Below are positions 38,741 to 44,313 of a stretch of 64,000 nucleotides of DNA, one piece after another. Position numbers and translations under genes: made by a program. The stretch comes from Ruminococcus sp. (GTDB taxonomy: Bacteria > Bacillota > Clostridia > Oscillospirales > Ruminococcaceae). The notes under the pieces were generated by a model. It searched no databases and was not told the origin of the DNA. It saw only the letters and a program-made list of their open reading frames with translations. The stretch is taken from assembly GCA_017519415.1 (NCBI GenBank), contig JAFWSI010000034.1:33366-97365 (forward strand), in the 5' to 3' direction. How positions within the stretch are numbered: the stretch's first letter is position 1; each line of letters opens with the position of its first letter.

Positions 38741-39895
38741 TTACATTTTCTTCTTGAAGTTGAGGTTAGCCTTTGCGACTTTCTTTCTGTCCTTTGCCTG
38801 CTTGAGCATATCCTCCTTGGACATACCCTCGCCCTCGTTATTGCTTGTGTCATCGTCGTCAAGGAAACTGCTTAATCTTTTTTTGAAAGCGTTCTCGCCG
38901 CCGGGCTTTGAGGTAAGAGTGATGCTTACGCTGCCCTGCTGCTGGAAGCTGCCGACCGCACCGCCATGCACGGAAGGTCCGTTATATCCCTGTCTGTAGG
39001 GAGCGGCATTCATGCCCTGCTGATACATTGAGTTCGGCATACCGCCGCCCTGGGGATAGCCCTGTGGGTAGCCCTGCTGAGGATAGCCTCCGTGATAGCT
39101 GCCCTGAGGGAAGCCCTGCTGGGGATAACCCTGCTGAGGATAGCCCTGTGGGTAGCCCTGCTGGGGATAGCCCTGGGGATAACCCTGAGGATAGCCCTGC
39201 TGGGGATAGCCCTGAGGGTAGCCCTGCTGGGGATAACCCTGAGGATAACCCTGGGGGTAGCCCTGCTGCTGACCTGCGCCGAGATTCGGGAATCCGCTTG
39301 CGCCTCTCTGCTGAGCCTCTTCGGGATGCTCGTAGAGGAAATTGAGGTCGCCGTCCTGAGCCTGATCGTTTGCGGGCTGGGGATCTGTATCCGAATTGAA
39401 GGGATTGGTAGTCTCAACGTTGAAGCCGTCTGCAAAATCAGCGGGAGCGCCGAGCTCGGCAGACTCATCATAGCCGCTGAGAAAATCGGGAGTTGCGTCT
39501 GCGGGAACAAGGCTTGCTGCGGGTATTGCCTCATCGGGAGAGAGCACTATCTGACAGCTGCTGTTGTCAACGCTGGAATTCACGAGCAGAGAAAGAGCGT
39601 CGTCGTCGGGTCTGAAATAGCTGTAGTCGTCGAGAGAAATGAGGATAAGCTGCTTAGCTATGACCTTCTTTGCCGTGATGACCGACATGATGGCTATTTT
39701 TTCGGCTGGAACGTTCTCAACTGTGCCCTCGTTTATAGATATGCCCGAAACGCCTGAGAAAATATCGCCGGTGTCAGCGACTATAAGGCACAGACACGCG
39801 TCGTAATTCACGAGCTCCGGCCGCGCGATCTTAACTGTATCCGCAAAATTCTTTGCAGTATTGTATAAAGAACCTATTTCCAAATCAAACACCAC
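38741..39895 (-). CDS. deaminase-like pseudo-enzyme fused to (QGYPQ)n low-complexity tract
   Basis: A 384-residue protein. Residues 1-125 have the strand-helix order of the cytidine-deaminase fold: [20 protein letters not shown], then [16 protein letters not shown], then [20 protein letters not shown]. The Glu of the catalytic PAE is kept, but the first zinc Cys (usual CAE) is Pro and the PCxxC pair reads RPDDDA, so zinc should not bind. Residues 130-205 are an acidic, disordered linker, 209-284 are about 18 repeats of QGYPQ/YPQQG, and 340-384 are a charged tail rich in Lys. Fold assignment is by eye. It is the last gene of the kinase-phosphatase-vWA operon, so it is a likely effector or scaffold. 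Confidence 0.7.
39044..39271 (-). repeat. QGYPQ-coding tandem repeat
   Basis: A 228-bp stretch of near-identical 12- and 15-bp units coding GYPQ and GYPQQ. The copy number is likely to vary by slippage. Confidence 0.85.
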
Positions 39896-39944
39896 TTTTC
39901 TTTAATTATTAACGCAGACTCCTGCGCTTGTACACATATTTACC

Positions 39945-40850
39945 TCACACCTGTTTGCTGAGGGCTGCCGCTTTTCTGTCGGCCGCCGCCTTTTTGTTCT
40001 CATCCACACGTTTTCTTATAAGGTCCATCCTGTCGGTAAGGAGCTTTTCGTTGTAGATGCAGGCGAGAGAAATATCGTCTTCAGTACCGAAGTGCGATCT
40101 TTTTTCAAGATTGTTCTTGATGACTGTTTTAAAGGTTTCGATATTAACGAGCTGACTTGTGATAATGGTATGATAGTCGAGGAAATCATGCTCGCTGCCG
40201 AAGGAGGTATAGAGTCCGTCGGTGGAGCCGTAAAGTGCAATGAGCTTTTTGTTCGGCGCATAGAAGCTGCTGAACAGTGAAGCTGCGTTGGAATTGCACA
40301 GGGAAGCCGTAACGTTTGCGGGAGCGGATTCGTTGTACTCCATGGGCATTACGGCCTTGCCGTCCTCGAATAAAGCGACGAGGCTTCCGTCTCCTATCTG
40401 AAGTCCGAATGTGTAGTTGTCGCCTGAAACGGCGGCTACGAGAGTAGTTCCGTAGTAGGATTCGGGCAGTATTGCCTCGAATTCCTCCTCGGTGAACTTT
40501 TCCTTTTCCTTATCGGTTACAGGGTTTTCGGAGAGATGCTTATCAACCTTCACATTCCAGTTTGAGATGATCTGCTTTTCGATATTCCTGATGATAAGTT
40601 TATGGTTTACGGGAAGGCTTGCTTCCAGTGCCTCTCGCTCCTCGTAGAACCTGTCGATAGCTTCGATGGTAGCCTCGACGGCGAACTTTGAACCGAGGTG
40701 GCTTCTGAAATGCTTTTTGCTTCCGTGACCGTCGGCAACGACAGCGATGGCATAGTGGTCGCCGATCTTAAAAGCAGAGCTGTCCTGACAAACCAGATTG
40801 GTCTTTTCGTGGCTTGCGCCCATGACCGAATGGCTGAAGCCGCTGAACAT
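39945..40850 (-). CDS. PP2C-family protein phosphatase
   Basis: A 301-residue phosphatase. The PPM motifs are visible: GASHEKTNLVCQDS, AVVADGHGSKK, YYGTTLVAAV, GLQIGDGSLVAL, YGSTDGLYTSFG and TEDDISLACI, with the metal-binding Asp residues intact. Residues 78-130 carry an inserted helical segment. It is expected to reverse phosphorylation by the kinase two genes upstream (41808-43151). The last 35 residues are basic and helical (KRVDENKKAAADRKAAAL). Confidence 0.95.
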   Translation of the reverse strand: MFSGFSHSVMGASHEKTNLVCQDSSAFKIGDHYAIAVVADGHGSKKHFRSHLGSKFAVEATIEAIDRFYEEREALEASLPVNHKLIIRNIEKQIISNWNVKVDKHLSENPVTDKEKEKFTEEEFEAILPESYYGTTLVAAVSGDNYTFGLQIGDGSLVALFEDGKAVMPMEYNESAPANVTASLCNSNAASLFSSFYAPNKKLIALYGSTDGLYTSFGSEHDFLDYHTIITSQLVNIETFKTVIKNNLEKRSHFGTEDDISLACIYNEKLLTDRMDLIRKRVDENKKAAADRKAAALSKQV

Positions 40851-40883
40851 ATTTATTCAATCCTCCTCACGAATTTCTAAAGA

Positions 40884-43151: not shown

Positions 43152-43174
43152 GATGTGATCTCATCCTTTCTCTG

Positions 43175-44212
43175 TTAATCCAGCTCATATTCTTCAGCCG
43201 AGGTAACAAGAACGAATCGTATCCCGGTGGCCAAGCAGTACTTATGAACGTATGAATTTTCTATACAATATATTACAAGGCTCGGACAGTAGGAGAAAGC
43301 ATTAGCGTCGATGAACTTGATGCTTTCGGGGAGAAAGAGCTTCCTGAGCCTTTCACAGCCCGAGAAGGCTTCCGCACCTATGCTGCTCACGCTGGGAGGT
43401 ATCTCTATTACCTCGAGGCTTGTACAGAATGAGAAGGTGCTGTCCTCTATTTCGAGCACTCCGTCAGGTATCTTCACCACAACGAGGTTTGCACACTGAC
43501 TGAATGCGCCTTGTTTGATTATCCTTAATCCTTCGGGAAGTTCGAGACCCCTCAGGCGCTTGCAGGACGAGAAGCAGTATTCTCCGATGGCGATGAGGGT
43601 GCCGGGGAGCCTGATGGTCCTGAGTGAACCGAATTTATCGAAGCAGAAGGCTTCGAGCTTTGTATATCCGTCAGGTATGGTGATATTTCCGCTGAGTCTG
43701 TATTTAAAGGCATTACGGGGAGTAAATACCATTTCGTTGACGTCGACTGTTCTTTTTCTGTGTTCCTCTCTCTCCTGTTCTTCCCCGCTTCCGGGCATTA
43801 CTTTAAGAGGAGACTCATAGGGCCAGCCAAGAAGGTATGTAAAGCAGGCGATAACGAATTCCGCAGCGTTTTCGGCAAGGAAGAGGTCTCCCAGCAGGAA
43901 GCTCTTGGCTTTCATTATGGAAAGCTCGCGGTTCTTATCCTCAAGAAGTATTTTCAGTACGCCCATACGGTACATATTGATGAGCAGGCGGCGTTCCTTG
44001 TCGTAATCGGGAACGTGGTCGCTGAGAAGGCCGACGAATCTTTCTTTTTTCATAACGGCTCGGGGGCCGTCGTTTACAACGATCGCACGAAGCTCTTTCT
44101 GAAACTCCATTGTATTTTCAAAGCCCTCGATATTCTGCGGAACAGGCGCACCGCAGCTGGGACATTCTGAAAGCTTCGGGTCAAGCGGCGCGTTGCATTT
44201 CTCGCATTGCAT
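43175..44212 (-). CDS. zinc-ribbon protein with BspA-type leucine-rich repeats
   Basis: A 345-residue protein. Residues 1-26 form a zinc ribbon (MQCEKCNAPLDPKLSECPSC). Residues 30-155 are helical, and from about 170 on there are LRR_5/BspA repeats (for example LPEGLRIIKQGAFSQCANLV and IPPSVSSIGAEAFSGCERLR). Lacks a signal peptide, so it should be cytoplasmic. I chose the ATG at 44212, just after GGAGGGG. It is the first gene of the operon and may recruit the kinase to its targets (inference). Confidence 0.9.
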   Translation of the reverse strand: MQCEKCNAPLDPKLSECPSCGAPVPQNIEGFENTMEFQKELRAIVVNDGPRAVMKKERFVGLLSDHVPDYDKERRLLINMYRMGVLKILLEDKNRELSIMKAKSFLLGDLFLAENAAEFVIACFTYLLGWPYESPLKVMPGSGEEQEREEHRKRTVDVNEMVFTPRNAFKYRLSGNITIPDGYTKLEAFCFDKFGSLRTIRLPGTLIAIGEYCFSSCKRLRGLELPEGLRIIKQGAFSQCANLVVVKIPDGVLEIEDSTFSFCTSLEVIEIPPSVSSIGAEAFSGCERLRKLFLPESIKFIDANAFSYCPSLVIYCIENSYVHKYCLATGIRFVLVTSAEEYELD

Positions 44213-44284
44213 TTTTACCCCTCCTGACATAAATTATAAACGCAATAAATGTAAAAAAATTATAGTCATATTAATATCACAAAT

Positions 44285-44313
44285 AGTATATCACTTTTCA
44301 ATATCAATGTCAA
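44285..44313 (-). promoter_or_regulatory. promoter of the LRR-kinase-vWA-PP2C operon
   Basis: Minus strand TTGACA (44308-44313), 17-bp spacer, TATACT (44285-44290). Confidence 0.82.

Follow-up and report, generated by a model that had tools for sequence, protein, structure and literature searches.

A five-gene operon with a single conserved promoter

The 64,000-nucleotide stretch of Ruminococcus sp. DNA analyzed here (the window; from contig C34 of a draft genome that measures 2.48 Mb and is 75% complete) contains five open reading frames (ORFs) on the minus strand, arranged head to tail and separated by 23, 39, 33, and 49 bases. Gene 1 (43175..44230) encodes an N-terminal zinc ribbon, a domain referred to as MID, and BspA-type LRR_5 repeats, as assigned by Pfam and profiles. 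Gene 2 (41808..43151) encodes a Ser/Thr kinase with a C-terminal zinc ribbon and an FHA-like β-sandwich (Pfam, alignment, and predicted fold). Gene 3 (40884..41768) encodes a VWA protein with a metal ion-dependent adhesion site (MIDAS; Pfam and alignment), and gene 4 (39945..40850) a PP2C phosphatase (Pfam). Gene 5 (38741..39895), designated CDAQ, encodes a putative deaminase-fold domain, an NPF-containing linker, QGYPQ repeats, and a basic C-terminus (predicted fold and alignment). It was annotated from GTG at 39895 in a preliminary description of this DNA; the gene is real, but its start is probably TTG at 39883, because most homologues begin there.

A sigma-A-type promoter with an extended −10 element (TTGACA-17-TATACT; AAAAGTGATATACT) lies at 44285..44313 on the minus strand and recurs across loci. 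A leftward operon with short gaps and a consensus promoter, as the preliminary description had it, is therefore present. To follow it through relatives, we scan one genome per species with a kinase profile, which finds 204 relatives, and keep the best 80 loci (the kinase-scan loci; loci carry L numbers). Because only the best 80 of 204 are kept, this sample is skewed to close relatives and includes near-duplicates. The head promoter, TTGACA-17-TATA(A/C)T, is matched at 11 or more of 12 positions in 72 of 77 loci, with a 17-base spacer in all 72, which places it beyond chance; the count leaves out L108, L160, and L171, where the upstream DNA is too short, and L180, which lacks the LRR gene. The consensus reads CTTGACA-N9-AaAaGTG-n-TATAcT. 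In a 180-base search the head promoter is found in 68/77 loci versus 1/77 shuffles, and no site as good is found at the internal junctions before the kinase (0/80), VWA (0/80), PP2C (0/75), GGDEF (0/12), or gene 5 (0/75).

Gene order is conserved as well. In 73 of the 80 kinase-scan loci the genes run LRR–kinase–VWA–PP2C–(GGDEF)–gene 5 on one strand, and the remaining seven end at contig ends; gene 5 is broken by a contig end in several loci yet scored as present. Separated genes or internal promoters, named beforehand as evidence against one unit, are thus not what the kinase-scan loci present, and the sequences support the five genes forming one operon under a single conserved promoter. A second sample of 38 loci was fetched through gene 5. 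The full set is present in 28 of these, L059 and L066 are cut, and L060, L061, L063, and L064 carry a gene-5 paralogue rather than the operon. The operon rows from which proportions are taken below number 107; some loci are entered twice under two ids, and L101 and L102 are one metagenome-assembled genome (MAG).

The set is a conserved chromosomal operon of the R. flavefaciens/albus lineage. Close titled matches in the kinase scan are Ruminococcus flavefaciens and related MAGs, and the hosts, according to record titles, are rumen and gut Ruminococcus. In the search of relatives, 46 of 59 congeners have a kinase of orthologue grade (at least 850 bits). The 39 genomes from other families of the order yield none below E 1e-30, and weaker kinases occur in 5/390 other genomes of the class (E ≤ 1e-20) and 2/397 other genomes of the phylum (E ≤ 1e-40). 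Median identity to the window over the 73 loci is 87% for the kinase, 85% for VWA, 70% for PP2C, 67% for LRR, and 47% for gene 5. The ratio of nonsynonymous to synonymous rates (dN/dS) indicates purifying selection, as judged from pairs among 11 rows for gene 5 (48 of 55 pairs kept), PP2C (45), and LRR (47) after removal of failed pairs and those with dS ≥ 3.

The kinase, VWA, and PP2C proteins resemble a TerY-P triad

The kinase matches Pkinase in Pfam (7.2e-11) and carries the motifs APE, YQDLN, and DCD. Its C-terminal zinc ribbon (CxC...CxxC), assigned from the cysteine pattern, comprises C325, C327, C346, and C349, which are invariant in 19 rows. Beyond the zinc ribbon, the C-terminus is predicted to fold as an FHA-like β-sandwich. 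No solved structure is matched at 1e-5 when sequences are compared with the kinase profile. The VWA protein (Pfam VWA, 9.9e-11) retains a complete MIDAS DxSxS motif (DTSGS; D67, S69, and S71 invariant in 19 rows) and has a conserved DPL-A motif N-terminal to the VWA domain. The PP2C protein (PP2C_2, 6e-34) is present in all 73 untruncated kinase-scan loci.

A TerY-P triad is defined, in the portions of PMC11090510 and PMC4978471 available, as a TerY-like VWA protein, a PP2C phosphatase, and a Ser/Thr kinase with a C-terminal zinc ribbon. The Ruminococcus proteins share all of these elements, the kinase zinc ribbon included, so the assignment in the preliminary description holds, and by the definition in PMC11090510 the predicted set fits as TerY-P-like. 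It differs from the triads covered there in three respects: no operon protein matches the TerY_C metal-binding domain (PF15616) at E ≤ 1, no restriction or ter genes are seen adjoining it in the window, and two further proteins, one with zinc ribbon, MID, and LRR and the other a deaminase-fold pseudoenzyme, accompany it in a conserved chromosomal setting. TerY_C does not belong to the definition in PMC11090510. PF15616 occurs as a separate neighboring gene in L189 (6.3e-08) and, by annotation, on a Prevotella plasmid (L210).

A related theme is the actinobacterial one described with GAP1-N2 GTPases in the accessible part of PMC7159879, in which a kinase–(zinc ribbon)–(β-rich domain) protein occurs with PP2C and a stand-alone VWA protein. 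The β-rich part models as FHA-like in the Ruminococcus kinase and is likened to theirs by description only; in contrast to that theme, no GTPase, tubulin, or HSP70 partner is among the Ruminococcus proteins identified. No description of the five-gene set was found in the open-licence literature.

The genome of the window also contains a second kinase (L188 688-2004, contig C3) and a second VWA–PP2C pair (L223 6649-8490, contig C31).

Gene 1 carries a domain common to other TerY-P-like loci

In gene 1, MID spans about residues 27–128 (~100 residues), between the zinc ribbon and the LRR (LRR_5, 1.6e-35), and has no Pfam match. We search a Ruminococcus MID profile against 705 ORFs from seven TerY-P-like genome loci outside the genus. 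Partner proteins are matched in five of the seven, in five genomes of five other families (L209, 5.3e-11; L189, 1.8e-9; L190, 4.1e-7; L208, 3.4e-5; L191, 3.1e-4). The profile gives no match in L192 and L193, reaches only E 0.14 on the Prevotella plasmid, and finds nothing below 1e-3 in the second triad-type loci within the genus (L194, L198–L202, and L204). In the reverse search, 77 of 1231 ORFs fall below 1e-3, and every one is the operon LRR gene. Profile–profile comparison gives a probability of 98.8%. The count of other MID-positive genomes is partly circular, because three of four were already in the alignment. By these profile comparisons, MID is a candidate domain, hitherto undescribed, common to TerY-P-like loci of other families.

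The C-terminal partners of MID vary (LRR_5, Sel1 repeats, and FGE-sulfatase). Thus the LRR protein, which the preliminary description regarded as foreign to the TerY-P set, is indeed outside the definition but is no isolated oddity, with MID recurring in TerY-P-like loci outside the genus. As a small domain with variable C-terminal modules beside a VWA gene, MID recalls the effector-associated domains (EADs) of VWA-centered conflict systems treated in the available part of PMC7159879. Several MID copies per locus are found in L189 and L208, a likeness by description only. Unlike EADs, MID is present as a single copy in the Ruminococcus operon and is also found outside TerY-P loci. MID would be a handle for finding further partners of TerY-P-like triads.

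MID is not an exclusive TerY-P partner. MID proteins with no visible triad are encoded at L220 6632-8206 (in the genome of the window), L222 6229-7353, and L221 6121-7404 (at a contig end).

Gene 5 is a deaminase-fold protein that has lost its zinc site

Pfam returns nothing for gene 5 at E ≤ 1; the fold predicted for the protein is that of cytidine/blasticidin-S deaminases. In place of the zinc-binding C/H-x-E and PCxxC motifs the window protein reads PAE and PDDDA, so that all three zinc ligands are gone. The preliminary description, which had called the fifth protein deaminase-like, is correct as to the predicted fold; the zinc ligands do not accompany it. The protein further differs from these deaminases in its long disordered tail. 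Across the operon rows the zinc ligands have been lost repeatedly, with 8–11 changes inferred.

The tail is made of an NPF-containing linker, QGYPQ repeats (39047-39268), and a C-terminal basic stretch, predicted to be helical. NPF is found in 82/86 zinc-lost tails versus 13/19 zinc-intact tails, and the basic C-terminal helix persists; this survey excludes tails of fewer than 60 residues and includes tails cut at contig ends. That the basic helix and the NPF motif are conserved suggests that docking is specific. The metal site having been lost several times while the tail was kept, gene 5 probably acts as a scaffold rather than an enzyme.

A gene-5 paralogue with an intact HAE...PCxxC site adjoins a GGDEF protein with a Cache match (checked with Pfam in L063 and L064). 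In the genome of the window, the pair is at L063 6897-7526 (paralogue) and 5361-6881 (GGDEF/Cache) on contig C75. Five relatives (L153, L156, L161, L163, and L167) have a paralogue–GGDEF pair within a few kb of the operon. The paralogue-linked GGDEF reads GSDEF in 7/9.

Genes inserted in and adjoining the operon

In 12 of 80 kinase-scan loci, a GGDEF gene is inserted between PP2C and gene 5; the window has none. Its signature is GGDEF/GGDEY in 20/25 rows, SGDEF in four, and TGDEF in one (some loci double-listed). By eye, none of the five operon proteins has a transmembrane domain, in agreement with the preliminary description, but the inserted GGDEF protein has a hydrophobic N-terminus, also by eye.

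We relate the zinc site to the in-operon GGDEF by a sign test on a tree of 89 rows. The tree was made by a quick method without a mixture model, with long-branch warnings for L042, L058, L059, and L062; identical kinases, L066, L125, L180, and operons without kinase, VWA, or CDAQ were removed. Seven independent pairs are obtained, of which 1.5 change the same way, 0.2 the opposite way, and 5.3 show no difference (median p 1). With too few differing pairs to reach 0.05, the test neither supports nor excludes a link between zinc site and GGDEF. Correlated loss of the two, which inspection by eye had suggested, is left unsupported, not disproved.

On the plus strand, divergent from the operon, lie a sugar-type substrate-binding protein (44714-45916) and, paired with it, a GGDEF protein with a degenerate signature (45932-47149). 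The pair adjoins the operon in 46 of 57 full-flank kinase-scan loci, on the opposite strand in 38 versus the same strand in 8. Its GGDEF reads TGNEF in 49/56 readable rows and the canonical sequence in none of the 56; 16 more rows are unreadable. There follow, also on the plus strand (47306..50960), a 189-residue protein, a coiled-coil protein, and an [FeFe]-hydrogenase-like Fe-S protein (49236-50960). The Fe-S gene is present in 52/57 full-flank loci, 50 of these with the coiled-coil gene, and again lies directly upstream of the second triads of congeners L194 and L198. The window Fe-S protein resembles the sensory-type hydrogenase group described in the accessible part of PMC11376134. Together, the neighbors suggest that the operon may be tied to redox/H2 sensing and cyclic di-GMP (c-di-GMP). 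We found nothing in the literature on a sensory hydrogenase together with a diguanylate cyclase.

On the other side, the usual next neighbor is TM6 (37998-38531, minus strand), which has two hydrophobic segments and is probably a separate gene. It is present in 54/57 full-flank loci, on one strand in 35 versus the other in 19. Membership of TM6 in the operon is unlikely, given the gap of 209 bases and the other strand in 19 of the 54 loci. A promoter-like site of TM6 (TTGCAT-17-TATAAT) matches 9/12 in the window, and 0/62 loci reach 11, which is weak evidence.

Proposed mechanism and alternatives

We propose, with about an even chance of being right, that the operon encodes a TerY-P-like phospho-switch of the R. 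flavefaciens/albus group that acts on a pseudo-deaminase scaffold or client. In this mechanism, the kinase would add and PP2C would remove Ser/Thr phosphate on partners from the same operon. The VWA protein, through its MIDAS, and the FHA-like domain of the kinase would keep the complex together. Recognition would fall to the LRR protein, which would enter the complex by its zinc ribbon and MID and bind the target with its LRR. Gene 5 would be the dedicated client or scaffold, combining a zinc-less deaminase-fold domain with NPF as a docking motif, a QGYP linker that is disordered, and a basic helix at the C-terminus; phosphorylation would set its assembly. We infer that the five proteins may form one complex, that gene 5 may be the kinase substrate, and that gene 5 may scaffold rather than catalyze. 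Gene 5 may in addition bind a ligand, and the neighbors may couple the switch to c-di-GMP or to H2/redox.

Several observations weigh against this proposal. Operons L041 and L045 lack the PP2C gene yet have LRR, kinase, VWA, GGDEF, and gene 5, gene 5 lies away from the triad in L047 and L048 (all four fetched through gene 5), and an orthologue-grade kinase is absent from 13/59 congeners. A complete C/H-x-E + PCxxC site is retained in 20/107 operon rows (two paralogue ORFs, L159 and L168, omitted), and gene 5 may therefore have been catalytic ancestrally and still be so in places. NPF is absent from the whole lineage L050–L057, mostly zinc-intact. One subclade (L049, L058, L152, L158, L169, and L175; tails of 117–183 residues) has no QGYP repeat, and the repeat is therefore not essential everywhere. 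For the kinase C-terminus, the best FHA match in Foldseek has an E of only 0.027. FHA domains bind phospho-Thr through a G-R / S-x-x-H / N-G pattern, and these canonical residues are unrecognizable by eye in the alignment.

The presence of GGDEF genes in and near the operon raises a possible, if unlikely, alternative, a nucleotide second-messenger module in which gene 5 binds (and, where its site is intact, deaminates) a GGDEF-linked nucleotide, with the kinase controlling the step. The mostly canonical in-operon GGDEF and the zinc-intact paralogue beside a GGDEF/Cache protein in the window's own genome fit such a module. A precedent linking phosphorylation, FHA, and GGDEF is Bdellovibrio DgcB, an FHA-GGDEF protein in the available part of PMC6733907, although in Ruminococcus the kinase bears the FHA-like domain and GGDEF, where present, is encoded separately. 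However, the tree test provides no association between zinc site and GGDEF, with too few differing pairs for significance, the window operon lacks GGDEF, and the divergent and paralogue-linked GGDEF signatures are degenerate or altered. The pseudo-deaminase switch itself is possibly tied to nucleotide signaling. The operon could also serve housekeeping Ser/Thr phospho-regulation of the envelope or fiber attachment, gene 5 being a low-complexity substrate without special design. The substrate-binding/GGDEF pair, the two-segment membrane-type neighbor TM6, and the rumen and gut hosts agree with this, but the suggested docking elements of gene 5 do not, and the recurrent neighbor clusters showed no obvious surface or cellulosome gene, none being searched for by name; we hold this explanation to be rather unlikely.

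An anti-phage or conflict system, in which infection would be sensed by the triad and answered by the LRR and deaminase-fold proteins as effector arms, as in stand-alone TerY-P-like defense modules, appears improbable. In the parts of PMC11090510 and PMC4978471 available, TerY-P triads are treated mainly in defense or stress loci, and PMC11090510 places them with CoCoNuTs and restriction systems and reports an OB-fold variant as stand-alone defense. MID partners with variable C-termini resemble effector-adaptor designs, and in PADLOC the kinase has partial matches confined to its kinase domain (PD-T4-6, 8.6e-13; mad6, 1.1e-10). Among the six proteins submitted to PADLOC, VWA, PP2C, LRR, and gene 5 have no match at E ≤ 1, the presence of TerY models in PADLOC-DB not having been checked. 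With the PP2C protein as the sole query, phage records give no match. With the kinase as the sole query, 1105 plasmid records match, all below 60% identity; of two examined, neither is the operon, one being a Prevotella TerY_C–kinase–VWA–PP2C set and the other a Klebsiella kinase beside CARF and AAA genes. Among the immediate window neighbors searched with Pfam, there are no ter, restriction, integrase-like, or DNA-processing genes, the wider window and the other loci not being annotated for such genes. The extreme conservation on the chromosome, the fixed strong promoter, and the wide occurrence of the orthologous kinase in congeners also argue against defense. The defense role considered in the preliminary description is thus not supported, and from its sequence the operon is not recognizable as a defense system.

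A bolder version of the pseudo-deaminase switch, which we consider doubtful, is a phosphorylation-controlled condensate or polymer. The former nucleotide-processing enzyme would be a ligand-binding core, its prion-like QGYP tail would assemble and dissolve under the kinase and PP2C, and LRR/MID would pick the cargo. If true, this would be a core, non-defense use of a conflict-type toolkit, in which the enzyme died in parallel on about ten occasions and the scaffold was kept. A catalytic site lost repeatedly under purifying selection would illustrate well how an enzyme evolves into a scaffold in nature. To our knowledge, no TerY-P triad has an identified substrate. In Ruminococcus, dozens of genomes link the triad to the same two partners, of which one forms a zinc-less/zinc-intact orthologue series, and this makes the phosphorylation target of the triad directly testable.

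Additional observations

The Fe-S protein at 49236-50960, also encoded in L127–L134, L194, and L198, has ferredoxin-type clusters, matches the H-domain in part, and looks coiled at its C-terminus. In one lineage (L050–L054 and L056), trmB and the pyrimidine genes pyrC, pyrF, carA, and carB (named by reading of the sequences) lie downstream of the operon. Near a lone kinase paralogue, L195 8781-9452 encodes a DUF3592 protein whose low-complexity repeat reads NNSGY/NNNGY, which makes it a further kinase neighbor containing a prion-like stretch.

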